Shown one piece after another: positions 4,045 through 31,184 of a stretch of DNA of 44,716 bases. The stretch lies in assembly GCA_003218475.1 (NCBI GenBank), contig QHNR01000035.1, positions 1 through 44,716 of the forward strand, read 5' to 3'. Every line of letters begins with the position of its first letter. Positions within the stretch are counted from its first letter, which is position 1. The notes below the pieces were generated by a model. The model was not told the DNA's origin, did not search any database, and saw nothing but the letters and a program-made list of their open reading frames with translations. This DNA comes from Verrucomicrobiota bacterium. Lineage in GTDB: Bacteria; Verrucomicrobiota; Verrucomicrobiia; Chthoniobacterales; UBA10450. The position numbers were made by a program, and so were the translations under genes.

Positions 4045-5001
4045 GTGCGTTTGGCTTGGCCGTTCAAAACTCGCATCGACGACGATCGCAATGGAGAAGA
4101 GCATCACTGTTGCATCGGTGATGCACGCCCAGACTTCTTGTGCGTGGGCGCGCAGAAAGCTGGAACCTCGTGGCTGTATCGACAACTCGAGCCACATCCC
4201 GATTTCTGGATGCCCCCGGTAAAGGAACTGCATTACCTGGATACTTTGAACAGCACGAGGCGATTCCATCCTCCGCGCTCCAAAGATGAATGCGATTATT
4301 GTTTTCTGGAGAGCATGAAGAACCTGAGTGCCCAGTCGTACATTGACCTGCAGAATTACGGCGAGTTGTTCCGACACAAGGGAGCGCTTCTGTCAGGTGA
4401 CATTTCGCCAGCCTATTCGACATTGAGCGATGAAGTGATTGAGCGAGTCGTCGATTACTTCCCTAATTTGAAAGTGATCTTTCTGGCTCGCGACCCTGTC
4501 GAGAGAGCCTGGTCGCAGTTGTCCATGGGCGTGCGGCTCGGAATGATCAGCCGGTTTGACGCGACGGATGCCGAGGAAGTGATTCGGAATTTGCTAAACC
4601 CAGGCGTGTTGGTCCGTTCGCATCCCAGTAAAACCGTCGCGCGATGGAAGCGCTATGTTCGTCCGGAACTCTTTCGCGTTTATTTCTTCGATGATCTGAA
4701 ACAAAATCCCGCACAGCTGCGACGTTCGATTCTCCTTTTTTTAGGCGGCGATCCGAACAAGCCAAGCGGTAAGTTGAAGCCGGATGACAACAGGGATGCC
4801 ATCAGGGAGAAGCTTCGGCTCACCGCCAAAGTGCGCGCCCGTATCGCTCAATTTTTTGAACAGGAACTGAAGGCCTGCGCAGCAGAACTGGGCGGACCGG
4901 CCAAACGTTGGCCAGCCCGATACGGCTTTTCAGTAGTCATCTTTCTCGCGCAACTAGTAGACGACTTCGATATCCTTTTCTGGTGCGATTGGATCGCCTG
5001 A
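4045..5001 (+). CDS. sulfotransferase family protein (copy A)
   Basis: PAPS-binding-like PDFLCVGAQKAGTSWLYRQL and VIFLARDPVERAWSQ; GTG start aligns with ATG of the downstream paralog. Confidence 0.88.
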   Translation: MRLAWPFKTRIDDDRNGEEHHCCIGDARPDFLCVGAQKAGTSWLYRQLEPHPDFWMPPVKELHYLDTLNSTRRFHPPRSKDECDYCFLESMKNLSAQSYIDLQNYGELFRHKGALLSGDISPAYSTLSDEVIERVVDYFPNLKVIFLARDPVERAWSQLSMGVRLGMISRFDATDAEEVIRNLLNPGVLVRSHPSKTVARWKRYVRPELFRVYFFDDLKQNPAQLRRSILLFLGGDPNKPSGKLKPDDNRDAIREKLRLTAKVRARIAQFFEQELKACAAELGGPAKRWPARYGFSVVIFLAQLVDDFDILFWCDWIA

Positions 5002-5097
5002 CGTCGGCAAATAAAAGCCGGTCTATTGCTCCTTCAAATAAGGAGTAGGCTTTGCTCGTTCTTGCCTTTTTGATTCTAAGAGGAACATAATGCAGAC

Positions 5098-6054
5098 ATG
5101 AGATGGACCTGGCGATTCAAAGCTCGCACCGGGGCCAACGGTCATAGGGAAGCGAACGGATCTGTTAATGGCGATGCACGGCCCGATTTTTTGTGTGTGG
5201 GAGCCCACAAAGGCGGCACGACCTGGCTTTATCAGCAGCTCGACTCCCATCCGGATTTCTGGATGCCTCCGGTAAAGGAACTGCATTATTTTGATCAATT
5301 AAGTAGGGTTCACCGCACATCTCGTCCGCGCTGCAGAGATGACCGCGATCTTGGCTTTTTGGAGAGCCTAAAGAGCCTCAGTGCCAAGCCGTATATAGAC
5401 CTCGAGCATTATGCCCAACTGTTCGAACCCAAGGCATCGCTCCTTTCGGGTGATATTTCGCCAAACTATTCGACGTTGAGTAATGAAGTCATTCGGCGAG
5501 TCGTCGGATATTTCCCGAACTTAAAGGTGATCTTTCTGGCCCGCGATCCGGTTGAGCGCGTGTGGTCGCACTTGTCCATGGAAGTGCGTTATCGCCAAAT
5601 TGAGCCGTTCGACGCGACCGATATCGACCAAGTCAATCGGAATTTGCTCCGTCGAGGGATGCTGTTGCGCTCGTACCCGAGCGCAATTGTCGCGCGCTGG
5701 AAATGCAATGTTCATCCAGACAGGTTTCGTATTTATTTCTTTGACGATCTAAAAAGAAATCCCACTGAACTGCGGTGCTCCATCCTCCGTTTTTTGGGTG
5801 CCGATCCAGACAAGCCAAGCCGCCGGGTGACGACGGATTACAACAGTTGGGCCGGGATGGAAAAGCTACCTCTTACAGATAAAGTGCGATTGCATCTGGC
5901 TCAGTTCTTCAAGAAAGAGCTCAAGACCTGCGCGGCGCGACTGGGCGGGCCAGCCAGAGATTGGCCGGCTCGATATGGCTTTTCAGTACTCTTTTTTCTC
6001 TGGGAGTTGGCAGACGATATCGATCTCTTTGTGTGGTGCGACTGGATTGCCTAG
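5098..6054 (+). CDS. sulfotransferase family protein (copy B, tandem paralog)
   Basis: PDFLCVGAHKGGTTWLYQQL...VIFLARDPVERVWSHLS; also 318 codons. Confidence 0.9.
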   Translation: MRWTWRFKARTGANGHREANGSVNGDARPDFLCVGAHKGGTTWLYQQLDSHPDFWMPPVKELHYFDQLSRVHRTSRPRCRDDRDLGFLESLKSLSAKPYIDLEHYAQLFEPKASLLSGDISPNYSTLSNEVIRRVVGYFPNLKVIFLARDPVERVWSHLSMEVRYRQIEPFDATDIDQVNRNLLRRGMLLRSYPSAIVARWKCNVHPDRFRIYFFDDLKRNPTELRCSILRFLGADPDKPSRRVTTDYNSWAGMEKLPLTDKVRLHLAQFFKKELKTCAARLGGPARDWPARYGFSVLFFLWELADDIDLFVWCDWIA

Positions 6055-15664: not shown

Positions 15665-15737
15665 GCCGACGTAGCTCAGCTGGTAGAGCAGCGGTTTCGT
15701 AAACCGCAGGTCACGGGTTCGAATCCCGTCGTCGGCT
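15665..15737 (+). tRNA. tRNA-Thr (anticodon CGT)
   Basis: 73-nt cloverleaf: acceptor GCCGACG/CGTCGGC, anticodon stem GCGGT/ACCGC with loop TTCGTAA, T arm ACGGG TTCGAAT CCCGT. Confidence 0.95.
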
Positions 15738-15738
15738 C
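15692..15738 (+). repeat. attL-type 47-bp direct repeat (tRNA-Thr 3' part)
   Basis: CGGTTTCGTAAACCGCAGGTCACGGGTTCGAATCCCGTCGTCGGCTC, repeated at 20805-20851. Confidence 0.95.
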
Positions 15739-15747
15739 GCCCTCTAA

Positions 15748-15780
15748 AATGCGCCGTTTTACCTATGAAAACCGCGCATT
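15748..15780. repeat. inverted repeat just downstream of tRNA-Thr (possible terminator or accessory att site)
   Basis: AATGCGCCGTTTT-ACCTATG-AAAACCGCGCATT (12/13 paired), followed by T-rich CATTTTTGCTTTTCTTTT. Confidence 0.6.
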
Positions 15781-15837
15781 CATTTTTGCTTTTCTTTTCC
15801 CGATTCTCGCGCCGATAGTCCCCGAAAACTGACCGCG

Positions 15838-15863
15838 AAAACAACAACCAAACGACAACCGAA
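15838..15863 (+). repeat. left subterminal direct repeat of island
   Basis: AAAACAACAACCAAACGACAACCGAA vs AAAACAGCAACTAAACGACAACGGAA at the right end (23/26). Confidence 0.75.
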
Positions 15864-15943
15864 AATATGACGAAAAGACGACCGTTCAAAATCCGGGAGC
15901 GCAATTACCGGGCGAGCGCAAAATTTAGATTGCGGAGGGCGAC

Positions 15944-17091
15944 GTGAGGCGAATCGACTTCAGGGTGCGCCGCTACCGGGACCAGAACCGGCCTCGGTGG
16001 AAATTCGTAGTGAGCCATTACGAAGCCGGGGAACGCAAGGGCAAGCTGTTCGAGAAGAAAGCGCAGGCGCAAGCCTTTGCCGCGTTCAAGAAAACGGAAG
16101 CGGAAGCGCAGGGGCTGGGACACGCGGAGTTTTCAACCGATCTGCGCGTGATGACGCAAGATGCGCTTGAGCAGTTGAAGCCGTTCGGCAAGACGATCAC
16201 CGACGCGGTTGCGCACTACGTGGCGCATTTGAAAGCAAGCGAGCGGTCCTGTGGCGCGGCGCAATTGGTCGATGAAATGATTGCTGCTAAGGAACGAGAC
16301 GGCCTTTCGGAGCGGCACACGGAGGACCTTCGCAGTCGGCTCAAAATCTTTGCAGCGAAGTTCGACGGGCAGATGGTTGCCACGATCACGAGTGCGGAGA
16401 TTGACGATTGGTTGCGGTCGCTCCCGGTCGGTCCTGTCACGCGCAATCATTACAGGAGCGTGACCGTGCAGGCGTTCAACTTCGCGATTGGACGGGGATA
16501 CGCGACCCACAATCCAGCGGCCAAAGCAGCTGAGGCGAAAGAGCCGAAAACAAAACCGGGCATTCTCACGGTCGAACAGGCAACAGCGCTATTGGTCAAC
16601 GCTTCGCCGGAGATTCTGCCATACATCGCCATCGGACTGTTTGCCGGTCTGCGCCGTGCGGAGATTGAACGGCTGGATTGGAGCGAGATTGATTTCGACA
16701 GCGGCCACATTGAAGTCACCGCCGAAAAGTGGAAATCCAAGCTGGCCAATCGCTTCATCACGCTACAGCCGAATTTGCGGGCATGGCTCATGCCGCATCG
16801 CCAACTCAAGGGCGACGTCGCGCCAAAGGAAAACTTTCGGGACCTGTTCGATCAAGTGCGCAAGGCCGCTGGCATTCTGGCAGACTGGCCGGACAACGCG
16901 CTGCGACACAGCTTTGCCAGCTATCACGTGGCACACTTCAAAGACGCGAAAGGGCTGGCGCTGGAAATGGTCACACTGACTCCGGGATGCTTTTCAATCA
17001 CTACCGCGCACTCGTGAAACCGAAGGAGGCGGACCGCTATTGGCGCATCCGTCCGGTGGTGACGAAGAAAGTTGTGGCTTTCAAGGCGTGA
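15944..17091 (+). pseudogene. tyrosine recombinase/integrase, frameshifted before catalytic Tyr
   Basis: Frame 15944-17017 has GLFAGLRRAEIERLDW and LRHSFASY, then breaks; the frame ending at 17091 continues GHTDSGMLFNHYRALVKPKEADRYWRIRP. Confidence 0.88.
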
Positions 17092-17504
17092 CAAGCCAAC
17101 CCGGCGCGGTTCTAATTTCCAATGCGCTGCCATTCGGTCGGCTTTGGTATGGCGAGCCAAATGCAATCACGAACGCAATCGGTTACGCAAAGTTCCGCAG
17201 CCGTTCACACGATGCCGTGATTCGCGTTTACGATGAAGCTGGCAATGTGATCGAAACGCACGAGCACGGCAATCCAACAGAAGCACGGTCATTCGGCGCG
17301 ATGTTTTTGTTTCCGACGTTTTTTCCATTGAGGGTGAGCAGCGCGCCATTCCCGCTGTTTCCGCGTGTAATACTCCCGCCAGTATTGAGCCGTGCGTATT
17401 CGGCGGCGGCCACGCCTTTCAACCTTATGCATAAGATCAAAATAACCGACCGCGCAGACCAAACATTAATGAAGGCAGTTCAGAGCGCATCTAATTTTAC
17501 GTAG
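17088..17504 (+). CDS. small protein overlapping integrase stop (unknown function); only the N-terminal ~65 aa look coherent
   Basis: GTGA overlap; MTSQPGAVLISNALPFGRLWYGEPNAITNAIGYAKFRSRSHDAVIRVYDEAGNVIETHEHGNPTEA. Confidence 0.55.
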   Translation: MTSQPGAVLISNALPFGRLWYGEPNAITNAIGYAKFRSRSHDAVIRVYDEAGNVIETHEHGNPTEARSFGAMFLFPTFFPLRVSSAPFPLFPRVILPPVLSRAYSAAATPFNLMHKIKITDRADQTLMKAVQSASNFT

Positions 17505-17531
17505 CCGATTGCATCAAGGAGCCGAAAGGGT

Positions 17532-17563
17532 AAAGGCGTTCGCCGGCGGAGGCGAACGCCTTT
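17532..17563. terminator. 13-bp perfect-stem hairpin between convergent genes
   Basis: AAAGGCGTTCGCC-GGCGGA-GGCGAACGCCTTT. Confidence 0.75.
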
Positions 17564-17611
17564 CCAATTCGCCTCGGTGTTTAACACACAAGGCCACTCT
17601 ACCTCAAAGCT

Positions 17612-18601
17612 TTACGGTTTGTTCACGACCACTTGCGGCGCAGGTTTGCTCACTTCAAGCTGCGCGCTCACTTTCTGCAGGCCCGCAGTAAGCGCGTCAA
17701 TTTGCTTTTGCTGGCGCGCGACGGTCGCTTGCAATTCCTCAACTTTGCGATTGGACATGGCTTGGGGCTTGCTGGCTTGGGAAGCAGGTACCGAGACCCT
17801 GTTTCCAGCGGCATCGACGAGGCCGGTGCCTAACTTTCCAGAGCTATCGATGAACACAATGAAGGCTTCCGCGATCGGAACGTCCTGACCGATAATGTTG
17901 CTGATATAGGTGCTGTTATTCACCTGGCCAAGCGTACCATCGATACCAGACTGGACCACGCCGATTACATTAATGTTATTGCCGACGTCAATGTCGAACC
18001 CGGCGAAACCACCGAGGGCCGTGTTCAGTGCACCGGTTGTGACGCCCCCGAGCGCAGAAGCGCCAAAAGCGCTGTTGAACGCTCCGTCGATGTTGTTGGC
18101 AAGTGCGAAAGCGCCAAAAGCGTTGTTGGCGCTGGCAAAACCGCCGCCGCTCGAGTCATTATTATAGAGCGCAAAGAAGCCGACAGCATTGTTCTCGCTG
18201 GCGATCATGTTGTTGACGAGCGCGTTAGTTCCAACGGCTGTGTTTCTAGTGCCGCTGAGGTTGAGGATCATCGCTGCGGTGCCAACTGCGGTATTGGAAT
18301 CCCCTTCGGTCCCGACTCCTGTTCGACTGGTGAGGGCCAGCGTTCCAGCGCCAACACCGGTGTTGAAGCTGGCGTCACCGGCTAAAAAGTTGGAATACCA
18401 ACCAACTGCTGTGTTTCCTATGCCGCCTAAGAGCTGATGAAGGGCGTTGCACCCTTCCGCTGTCGTGAACGCGGGATAGCACCCGTCCGGGTTCCCGGGT
18501 ATCTCCGGGGGTAATTGCGCTTGCATTGTTGGCAAAAGCCCAATGCAGGCGAACACGGACAGGATAGTTGTGAATATTTTTAGGCTACTACGATTTTTCA
18601 T
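17612..18601 (-). CDS. secreted YadA-head-like repeat protein with C-terminal coiled coil
   Basis: Signal-like MKNRSSLKIFTTILSVFACIGLLPTMQAQ; repeats GNTAVG, NTGVG, NTAVG, NTAVG, NNAVG, NNAFG, NSAFG, NTALG; coiled coil VEELQATVARQQKQIDALTAGLQKVSAQLEV. Confidence 0.85.
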   Translation of the reverse strand: MKNRSSLKIFTTILSVFACIGLLPTMQAQLPPEIPGNPDGCYPAFTTAEGCNALHQLLGGIGNTAVGWYSNFLAGDASFNTGVGAGTLALTSRTGVGTEGDSNTAVGTAAMILNLSGTRNTAVGTNALVNNMIASENNAVGFFALYNNDSSGGGFASANNAFGAFALANNIDGAFNSAFGASALGGVTTGALNTALGGFAGFDIDVGNNINVIGVVQSGIDGTLGQVNNSTYISNIIGQDVPIAEAFIVFIDSSGKLGTGLVDAAGNRVSVPASQASKPQAMSNRKVEELQATVARQQKQIDALTAGLQKVSAQLEVSKPAPQVVVNKP

Positions 18602-18835
18602 TAGCTTAACTTTCCTTTCATTGTTTTGGCCTTCTCTGATTTCCCGCTGGAGAACTCATTTCCGAGAAGCGCGGCTGCGTGATCTGGATTTGGATGACTC
18701 GCGGAAGCGTGGCCATTTGGATGTTCATTTGGAGTTCTTACATTTCTCCAATAGCCCACCGCCGCCTTCCCCGCCCTGTGAGAAGTTGGACAAACTATCG
18801 AACAACGAAGTTTCGCGGCTTTTCGCTAGTCTCCA

Positions 18836-18869
18836 TATAGGACCTTGGTCCTACGACCTTAGTCCTATA
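18836..18869. repeat. 34-bp imperfect palindrome
   Basis: TATAGGAC-CTT-GGTC-CTAC-GACC-TTA-GTCCTATA. Confidence 0.75.
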
Positions 18870-18885
18870 CGTCCGCCCGTTGGAA

Positions 18886-18960
18886 TCAATCGCTGAGACA
18901 CAGCCCCAAACTCCAATCGGCTTTGCTACGATTATCGGCGATTATTTCCCAATGCTTCAT
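18886..18960 (-). pseudogene. short decayed ORF MKHWEIIADNRSKADWSLG..., frame lost at a G run
   Basis: Other frame continues GCVSAIDSNGRT after WSLG; GGGG (CCCC at 18904-18907) would restore frame as GGG. Confidence 0.4.
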
Positions 18961-19111
18961 TCGAGTTTCAAATCGACGATGAATCGCCGCGTGAAGTTTC
19001 TCTTGTTGCTGCCCGCCAGCTACTTCGCTTCGAGCAGGCGTTACCCGCTTTGAGGTCGGTGGCTTGGATCGTTCCGAGCAGTACTCGCCGTCATGATGCC
19101 AAAACATTGTT

Positions 19112-19984
19112 CTACTTTGCCATCGATGTCTCGGACGACCCGTCCTTCGACGTTGGAGCCGATTTCGGTGGACCACCGAATGTCCAGGAACCGCCGAAGA
19201 CGATGGTGCGCCCCTCCGGTCGAGCCACGGCCGAATACTCGTCGTAGTTGTCGAACACCTGATCTTCAAACGATTTCTCTTTCTTCGGCTTGGACGACGG
19301 CTTGCGCTTCTTTGTTGGCGCTGCGTTAGCCGCCTCTCTGAGCGACTTCTTACGAGCGATCACGTCCTCAGCGACGCCAGCCTTAACCGCTGTGACGGCT
19401 TGGCGGCCTTTGTGCTCGGAAACCTTCGCCTCAGCAGCAATTTGCTGCGTCACTTTGCCAGCTTCGGTTGAATTCAACCTAACCTTTTCTTGACCACCTT
19501 TCCTCTGGCGCTCTCGCGCTTGGGCTTCAAGCTGTGGAAGACGAATCTTCGCAATCAACGCCACGCGTTGATCGTCTGTCAGATTCAGGTCCCGGCGCAT
19601 GATGTTCTTGGATATAACAAAACCAGCCGGGTCAGTGCCCTCGTAACGCTTGAAGGCTCGCGGGATGCCTAACTCACGGCAGGCTCTTTCCCGGTGGCGA
19701 CCATCTAGAATCTTGCCCTCATAAGTCGTAATGATCGGGTCTGTCAGACCGCCGTTCTTCTTGATGTCTGCGAGAAACTCTTGGTAGCGCTCCTCCGACA
19801 TTGGCGGCACGAGTTCCGCCAGCGGGTGAGGTTCCATTAGCTCTAGCTCGTGTTGCGGTTTGCCCGTGTCTGGCTGAGTCGGTAGCCGGGCTTGGTTTTC
19901 TAGCTTGCGCTGTTCCTCAGCGCCAGTGGCCTGCTTTGCCCGGAAGGCTTTTAGCTCCTGTTTGTGCGTTGATCTATCTTTCAT
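19112..19984 (-). CDS. ParB N-terminal-like domain protein
   Basis: HPLAELVPPMSEERYQEFLADIKKNGGLTDPIITTYEGKILDGRHRERACRELG; basic C-terminus. Confidence 0.85.
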   Translation of the reverse strand: MKDRSTHKQELKAFRAKQATGAEEQRKLENQARLPTQPDTGKPQHELELMEPHPLAELVPPMSEERYQEFLADIKKNGGLTDPIITTYEGKILDGRHRERACRELGIPRAFKRYEGTDPAGFVISKNIMRRDLNLTDDQRVALIAKIRLPQLEAQARERQRKGGQEKVRLNSTEAGKVTQQIAAEAKVSEHKGRQAVTAVKAGVAEDVIARKKSLREAANAAPTKKRKPSSKPKKEKSFEDQVFDNYDEYSAVARPEGRTIVFGGSWTFGGPPKSAPTSKDGSSETSMAK

Positions 19985-20151
19985 CTGCTAGTTACCTTTC
20001 TTTTGTTGGTGTGTGCCGAGTGGTTGGTGAATCCCTTTGCCGCCGCGTCGGCACGTCCGCAGGAGTGAGGGTGTTTTCATTTGGTCTTTTGAGAATTGCG
20101 CGCCGAGTGAGCCGCCATGCTTGCTCGGCGCAAGTTTCTTTGGAGCCGGGT

Positions 20152-20388
20152 TCATCGCCGCAGCACCTCCACGGCTTTTATCTCCCTACGAAGGAGCGCA
20201 CGTTGCACGCGGCTCTTCTGAAACAGGATTGTCTTGTAGCCGAATTTGAAATGCGGGATGATGCCCGCGTAAACCCAATCGCGCAGACGGCGCTCAGGGA
20301 TGTTCAATTCCTTGGCTAGTTGCCGATAGTTCAACAGCGGTTCGAGGCTGTCGCTGACCGCGCTCAGTCGTTCTGGTTTTGCTGCCAT
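20152..20388 (-). CDS. helix-turn-helix (excisionase/MerR-like) DNA-binding protein
   Basis: LLNYRQLAKELNIPERRLRDWVYAGIIPHFKFGYKTILFQKSRVQRALLRREIKAV. Confidence 0.78.
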   Translation of the reverse strand: MAAKPERLSAVSDSLEPLLNYRQLAKELNIPERRLRDWVYAGIIPHFKFGYKTILFQKSRVQRALLRREIKAVEVLRR

Positions 20389-20453
20389 AAAGTGGATGTT
20401 GTCGCGTCGGTTTTGTTTTGTTCCGTTGCAACCGCACCGCCTTGAACCGATGC

Positions 20454-20487
20454 AAAAAAATAGCGGCACGATTGCTTACCGTGCCGC
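20454..20487 (-). terminator. intrinsic terminator (leftward), upstream of the HTH gene
   Basis: Minus strand GCGGCAC-GGTAAGCAATC-GTGCCGC-TATTTTTTT. Confidence 0.75.
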
Positions 20488-20680
20488 GTCATGGGCTTCC
20501 GCGACTGTGCCGCCCTTCACCGTTGCCGCCTCAGTGGCTCAGTCTCGAAGACTCAGACAACGTTGTGTTGCTTTGCGGCCTCCACTCCGTATCCGTGGCC
20601 GAACCTGTTTAGATTAGCCCGGAATCCGGGAAAAAAACCAGAATTTTTTCGGCGTGCGAACAGCGGTCCGGGTCCGATCA

Positions 20681-20700
20681 AACGCCGAATTCGCCGTTTG
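20681..20700. repeat. 20-bp imperfect palindrome
   Basis: AAACGCCGAATTCGCCGTTT, 9 of 10 pairs. Confidence 0.5.
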
Positions 20701-20756
20701 AAAATCCCGGTCGGCCAACGATCTTCAATTCAAGTTAATCGTCTCAATAGTTTGCC

Positions 20757-20782
20757 AAAAACAGCAACTAAACGACAACGGA
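20757..20782 (+). repeat. right subterminal direct repeat of island
   Basis: AAAACAGCAACTAAACGACAACGGAA, see 15838-15863. Confidence 0.75.
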
Positions 20783-20804
20783 AGCGGCTCGTGGGGCTAC
20801 GCGT

Positions 20805-20851
20805 CGGTTTCGTAAACCGCAGGTCACGGGTTCGAATCCCGTCGTCGGCTC
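20805..20851 (+). repeat. attR-type 47-bp direct repeat (tRNA-Thr 3' part duplicate)
   Basis: Same sequence as 15692-15738; no 5' tRNA half present. Confidence 0.95.
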
Positions 20852-30133: not shown

Positions 30134-30277
30134 CGTTCCGTTTTTCCGGATGAGTTTGAGGGCGCTATCTATCAGTTACTGAGACGCGGCGGCCGGCGTG
30201 AGGAAATCTTCTGGGATAATGTGGATAGAAAGAAGTTTCTGGAGCTGATCCCTCTTTCAGCCTTTCTTCCCGCGTGA
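30077..30277 (+). pseudogene. N-terminal relic of REP-associated tyrosine transposase (RAYT, Y1_Tnp/IS200-like)
   Basis: DEFEGAIYQLLRRGGRREEIFWDNVDRKKFLEL resembles the RAYT N-terminus (IEFEGAIYHVMSRGNxRxxIFxDDxDRxxFL); no HUH or Tyr region follows. Confidence 0.72.
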
Positions 30278-31184
30278 CGCCGTCAGAACAGCTGAAACGG
30301 CGCGCAGGCCGAATGCGTCGGCGTTATTGGGACGATCCGGGAAAAGCGCGCTCTTATGCCAGAAAATGGTATGCCCCTAACCGGGACCGGTTGCGGGCAA
30401 AATCGTTCGCGTATTGGCGATCTCATCGCGAGGAAATTCTCGCCAAGCACCGCGTCCGGCGACGCGAGGCTGCCCGGAACCGAGCACCGAGAGCGGAGCT
30501 CTCAGCTGAGGATAGAAAGATTCGAAAGCGCGCCTACTATGAAAAAAACAGAGAGCGAACTCTGGCCCAGAATCGGGAGTATCGAAATAGGCCGGAAATA
30601 CGAGAGAAGGTGCGCGAACGAAGACGAAAAAATCGCGACACGGTTCTTCGCTGGAAACGCGAGTCGTATTGCCGGAATCGCGAGAAAATTTTGACTCAGC
30701 AAAAGGCGTTCAAGCAAAACGAAGCGCCGCAGGAAAAAGCAAAGCGTCTGGCTTGGCATCGCGCTTATTACAAGAGTAATCGCGAACGAATCCGCCAGAT
30801 GCAACAAGAGTATCGGCGCCGCAATCTGAAGCGCCATAACTTGAAACGTGTTATTAAGCGTCGATCAGATGTGCAGTTCGCGCTGCGCTGCCGCATTCGC
30901 AATCGTGTACGCAAAATCGTTCTCCAACACCTTATTTCGCCTCGCGTAGTCACTACCTCGACTTATTAGGTTGCAGATTGAGCGAACTTGCTTCCTACCT
31001 TGAGAGCAAGTTCCTGCCGGGAATGTCTTGGGAGAATCGCAACCTTTGGCACCTCGATCACATTCGGCCCTTGAAGACGTTCGACCTCTCTGAGCCGGCA
31101 CAACTTGCAGCCGCTTGCCACTTCACCAATCTTCAGCCCCTCTGGGCCGCCGACAATCTGAGAAAGGGGCACCGCTGGCCCTAG
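30274..31184 (+). pseudogene. HNH-type endonuclease, split by frameshift
   Basis: Basic N-terminal part 30274-30969; other frame carries LGCRLSELASYLESKFLPGMSWENRNLWHLDHIRPLKTFDLSEPAQLAAACHFTNLQPLWAADNLRKGHR. Confidence 0.75.

Follow-up and report, generated by a model that had tools for sequence, protein, structure and literature searches.

Genomic islands of Sinorhizobium meliloti are bounded by repeats, 46-49 bp long, that correspond to tRNA 3' ends (PMC11476347), and ROD21-like islands possess a conserved excision/integration module (PMC6035254). With these tRNA-integrated islands the locus described here shares an integrase gene beside a tRNA gene, a repeat of about 47 bp, a small helix-turn-helix (HTH) gene and variable cargo; it differs from them in its Verrucomicrobiota-like host, its reduction to 5.1 kb, its frameshifted integrase and an interior taken up by a host-dispersed module. 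In the phage collection searched, a similar integrase was found at ≤1e-10 only in the Akkermansia prophages Chantilly, Moulinsart and Chambord (28.8-29.7% identity), which are full prophages of 31-37 kb, whereas no virion or packaging gene is seen in the present island. These phage matches and the general gene content point to a host in the Verrucomicrobiota. The locus lies in a window of 44,716 nucleotides (the whole stretch of DNA that was analysed), namely contig C173; the assembly to which it belongs totals 3.16 Mb in 195 contigs and is 83% complete. With a probability of roughly 0.8, we interpret it as a tRNA-Thr(CGT) island of the type found in a related genome, G008, with its interior lost or replaced by the host-dispersed module and its integrase frameshifted, and probably immobile alone.

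The island spans positions 15692-20851, 5.1 kb between exact 47-bp direct repeats (Table 1). The last 47 bases of the tRNA-Thr(CGT) gene are repeated exactly at its far end, an identity far beyond chance, and the gene itself is intact. To the right lies a glycosyltransferase gene (20985), orthologues of which occur in 15 same-genus genomes, with tRNA-Thr(CGT) just upstream in 14 of the 15. In 12 of those 14, the order metallo-hydrolase (MBL; 14574 in the window), uninterrupted tRNA-Thr(CGT), glycosyltransferase is found with no element between, and for most of the empty-site genomes the window flanks, once joined, can be aligned straight through the junction. CCA is encoded directly after the tRNA in 9/14 empty sites; attR is likewise followed by CCAGCC, and attL by CGCCCTCTAAA, which agrees with the island-side sequence of related islands. 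Because CGCCCTCTAAA matches those islands, and attR rather than attL keeps the CCA, the DNA to the right of attL arrived with the island. The preliminary description had proposed a site-specific insertion at the tRNA 3' end, bounded by 47-bp direct repeats, with the integrase gene adjoining attL and an HTH gene close to attR, and had suggested a look for empty tRNA-Thr sites; the repeats, the gene positions and the 12 same-genus genomes with an uninterrupted site between both flank genes agree with it on each of these points. Insertion of foreign DNA into the tRNA-Thr(CGT) gene is a real event.

One glycosyltransferase orthologue, on contig C169 of genome G184 (L045), has neither the tRNA-Thr(CGT) nor the metallo-hydrolase gene upstream and represents a rearranged locus. 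Elsewhere in the window, two tandem sulfotransferase-like genes (4045-6054) are apparent duplicates of one another, and a 231-aa open reading frame (30274-30969) is rich in repeated charged 'NRExx' motifs.

Table 1. Features of the tRNA-Thr(CGT) island, in window coordinates
Feature	Position	Strand	Basis or remark
tRNA-Thr(CGT), intact	15665..15738	+	ARAGORN; Rfam tRNA, 75 bits; its 3' part serves as left attachment site
attL core, 47 bp	15692..15738	+	same as 20805-20851; then CGCCCTCTAAA, element-like, versus CCA at empty sites
attL-internal arm region	15739..15863	+	CCCTCTAAAA box; ACAACCAAACGACAAC (RCAAY-N6-RCAAY) at 15844-15859
Tyrosine integrase ORF as sequenced, frameshifted near 16969, without catalytic tyrosine	15944..17017	+	PF00589 3e-7; phrog_1 1e-31; frame change versus 6/6 relatives
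Integrase C-terminal end in other frame (DSGMLFNHYRALVKPKEADRYW)	16969..17091	+	stop 17089-17091; alignment to relatives
Copy of small ORF A; its GTG start overlaps the integrase stop	17088..17504	+	58 own-genome matches; DNA match 17096-17268
Genome-dispersed module (A, hairpin, secreted protein, B)	17097..18963	.	coverage by other copies starts at 17097, ends at about 18963
G+C-rich hairpin	17519..17575	.	further copies present in the genome
Secreted NTAVG-repeat protein, 329 aa	17612..18601	-	related, with an internal deletion, to a 604-aa Peptidase_S74 protein on contig C23
Small ORF B remnant, first 90 nt	18870..18959	-	nhmmer 6e-21
ParB-like gene, 290 aa	19112..19984	-	phrog_21315 2e-20; phrog_12047 (ParB-like) 5e-5; relatives found
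Excisionase-like HTH gene	20152..20391	-	HTH_17 6e-6 (just under cut-off); TIGR01764 1.5e-4; phrog_66; G008 homologue 43%
attR-internal arm-like repeat, GCAACTAAACGACAAC inside	20758..20783	+	88% identical to 15838-15863
attR core	20805..20851	+	then CCAGCC, like empty sites

All six related integrases correspond to one frame of the window up to about position 16969 and to another from there to the stop at 17091. Because the relatives continue in this other frame, the listed ORF lacks the segment with the catalytic tyrosine: the frame changes before the tyrosine, and an intact catalytic R..H-R..Y set is not found. The element had been described as complete-looking, an impression that its integrase, ending in a frame without the tyrosine, does not sustain, and because of this frame change we class the island as a degenerate member by descent and not as a functional one. 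Either decay or, the contig being of metagenome type, an error of sequencing or assembly could account for the frameshift. Programmed frameshifting was rejected, since all six relatives read through in a single frame. The small GTGA-coupled protein noted previously is there, as is the overlap, but the ORF joins the stop of the integrase's other frame, not that of the listed integrase ORF. Searches with the integrase protein found no relatives in viral contigs or on plasmids.

The interior of the island has a different distribution from its ends. When the island was compared with the other contigs of its own genome, 15739-17092 and 18965-20804 matched nothing and are single-copy in the contigs compared; 17097-18963 was covered by up to tens of copies, and whole-genome searches with the module's two parts gave 60 and 58 matches. 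The window copy of ORF A has lost the family start and first codons, with its tail replaced; its relatives begin 'M...HVYEVRPRKD..'. The fuller copy on contig C23 bears a Peptidase_S74 chaperone domain, which the window copy lacks. Because the segment is multi-copy and is without the S74 domain of fuller copies, what had been taken for an adhesin-like cargo is a shortened copy of a dispersed, genome-resident module, the small ORF and the secreted protein together making up one of the tens of copies in the genome. Nor does the comparison of the secreted protein with a YadA head stand: it has no YadA family match in Pfam, where fuller copies carry Peptidase_S74, and none of the head, stalk and anchor families of a YadA-type trimeric autotransporter adhesin. 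Its PHROG matches are virion and tail-spike repeat proteins, and a search of solved structures returned no relative.

Two other explanations were considered. In the first, the locus would be a complete, functional compact element, excised by its integrase and HTH protein and carrying a secreted, adhesin-like protein of benefit to the host. Both att sites and the integrase, HTH and ParB-like genes are indeed present, and the frameshift could be an error, yet the frame changes ahead of the catalytic tyrosine, the cargo belongs to a module present many times in the genome and lacks the S74 domain of fuller copies, and no second copy of the arrangement was found; we consider this explanation improbable. 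In the second, short-read assembly would have joined two loci through the module, which is many-copy and is often carried by contigs of the same genome. A chimera of this kind is very improbable given that the MBL gene and the glycosyltransferase flank the same tRNA in 12 relatives and that the 47-bp repeats match across the gap.

Toward attR, the degenerate island retains two genes on the minus strand. The ParB-domain protein of the preliminary description corresponds to a ParB-like gene that is present, but the call is weak, with no match in a Pfam scan and a PHROG ParB-like hit at an E-value of 5e-5; a search for its relatives in viral contigs found none. The HTH gene had also been noted within the island. 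It is excisionase-like and a candidate excision directionality factor, with HTH_17 and excise-like scores at or below curated cut-offs, and starts at the ATG at 20391 or possibly at a GTG at 20469. Among the 83 genomes of the bacterial family, its protein has one clear relative, on the contig of the G008 integrase. An HTH gene directly before a ParB-like gene also occurs in genome G138 and, in other genomes of the phylum, at two loci. The G138 ParB-like protein (contig C54) is 36.6% identical to that of the window; in contrast to the island, where no replication-like genes remain, helicase and toprim genes follow it in G138. PADLOC returned only a weak mad1 HTH match.

Capsid, terminase, relaxase and replication families were absent from the six ORFs scanned, in agreement with the preliminary description. 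The island does not qualify as a prophage or phage satellite, having no virion or packaging family beyond the repeat similarity of the secreted protein, or as an integrative conjugative or mobilizable element, with no relaxase or conjugation match among the same six ORFs.

Integrases 59-64% identical to that of the window adjoin tRNA-Arg genes in genomes G159, G008 and G194. The G008 island (contig C23, 97942-125831) occupies 27.8 kb in tRNA-Arg(TCT) between exact 48-bp repeats of the tRNA 3' end, in the order tRNA, integrase, cargo, ParB-like N-terminal remnant, HTH, 48-bp repeat. It resembles the window island in having the integrase at the tRNA end, HTH and ParB-like genes at the other and common motifs inside attL; the integrases are 59% and the HTH proteins 43% identical (5e-10), and order and orientation are alike. 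Its ParB-like N-terminus is 45% identical to the G138 ParB (1e-5). It differs in its tRNA gene, its length and its cargo, which comprises restriction-modification, UvrD / PD-(D/E)XK, DUF5131 and permease genes. By integrase clade, HTH and ParB-like genes at the far end and arm motifs, we place the window island in the G008-type family, a grouping in which G008 is the only relative with both ends known and its ParB-like gene is an N-terminal remnant only.

The existence of islands with the same two ends bears out one part of the earlier idea of a compact element family; the relative, at 27.8 kb and with unrelated restriction-modification cargo, does not fit the rest. The further suggestion that the family is undescribed gives way to a degenerate member of the known tRNA-targeted genomic islands. 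The combination of integrase, GTGA-coupled protein, ParB and HTH, for which a search had been proposed, had no second case in the genomes sampled (ParB, 196 genomes of the order and 390 of the phylum; integrase and HTH, 83 of the family), and ParB and HTH genes were absent near the integrase relatives except in G008. Contig C39 of G159 (L137, 4400-8100) has a pair of tyrosine integrases facing one another downstream of a single tRNA-Arg gene, with a possible tRNA-like remnant near 4450, as judged by eye; these are perhaps stacked islands.

The attachment sites also link these islands. A CCCTCTRAAA box lies next to the tRNA in the window, G159, G008 and G194 islands (in G194 the called tRNA takes in its first bases). 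In the window, as in the three relatives at tRNA-Arg genes, RCAAY-N6-RCAAY is placed 105-114 nt from the tRNA, against an expectation of about 0.007 per 200 bp. Box and repeat recur at equal spacing in these three closest integrase relatives, and the attL-internal motifs are common to four islands at three tRNA genes. RCAAY-N6-RCAAY is also present on the attR side of the window island; the G008 attR side has an approximate copy only. These sites weigh on a further alternative, in which the integrase and attL came from one island and the HTH gene, ParB-like gene and attR from another in the same tRNA gene, with a deletion between them. That ParB and HTH genes are missing near integrase relatives other than G008, and that tandem integrases lie beside tRNA-Arg in G159, would suit such an accretion. 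We nevertheless think it quite improbable: a single island of G008 carries both this integrase type and this HTH type, and the arm-like repeats near attL and attR of the window island are 88% alike.

Our model of a single, degenerate G008-type island is as follows. A tyrosine-integrase island entered the 3' end of tRNA-Thr(CGT) through the 47 bp of identity and restored the tRNA at attL, as the sequence and the empty sites show. The family plan, evident from one full relative and four attL ends, has the integrase at the tRNA end, together with paired arm-like repeats, and the excisionase-like HTH and ParB-like genes at the other, with interchangeable cargo between. The integrase would bind the core and arm repeats and recombine attP with the tRNA gene, the HTH protein may act as an excisionase, and the ParB-like protein may regulate or partition the excised form. 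In the window, the interior was presumably lost, or replaced by one copy of the module of A, secreted repeat protein and B; the module may have inserted into the island, or the island may have formed around the module. With its integrase frameshifted, the island probably cannot move by itself; with both att sites remaining, it would stay put unless another integrase acted in trans.

ORF A (about 79 aa) occurs in 45 of the 83 genomes of the bacterial family, at up to 58 copies per genome, and in 2 of 243 across the phylum; ORF B (about 59 aa) occurs in 52 of the 83. The median dN/dS of A, 0.21 over 31 intact copies, indicates purifying selection and so marks A as a genuine protein family. No Pfam family scored above cut-off for A or for B, no relatives of A were found on plasmids, and single-sequence structure prediction for A gave a pLDDT of 52, which is not usable. 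The two alternate in arrays, with A mainly on one strand and B on the opposite one. The start of A is often no more than about 60 nt from the stop of an unrelated gene, or overlaps that stop. A or B was present at 5/10 integrase loci of the genus against 0/23 control loci (Fisher p 0.001), a rough comparison with partly orthologous controls. It is conceivable, if rather doubtful, that A and B form an undescribed, genus-restricted system resembling gene cassettes, in which A sits behind unrelated genes, copies lie near tyrosine integrases and arrays gain or lose cargo.

Alternating A/B arrays are seen on G161:C359 (L167, 1-14219), G000:C94 (L146, L150, L151) and G000:C79 (L143); between the copies lie VPDSG-CTERM-like secreted proteins and single genes unrelated to them. 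Many array copies are fragments, with breaks near nt 120-135 and 184 of A and nt 90 of B. The genes directly before A copies (L048, L168, L147) include TIR-like, peroxiredoxin-like and arginase-like ones, as judged by eye.

The window element is thereby settled as real yet degenerate, and a poorly studied lineage is seen to have a family of tRNA islands whose ends are constant and whose cargo, restriction-modification among it, varies. The comparison also brings to light the A/B modules, whose small proteins match no Pfam family and which number tens of copies per genome; if their arrays are a cassette system, much of the gene turnover in the genus would be explained.
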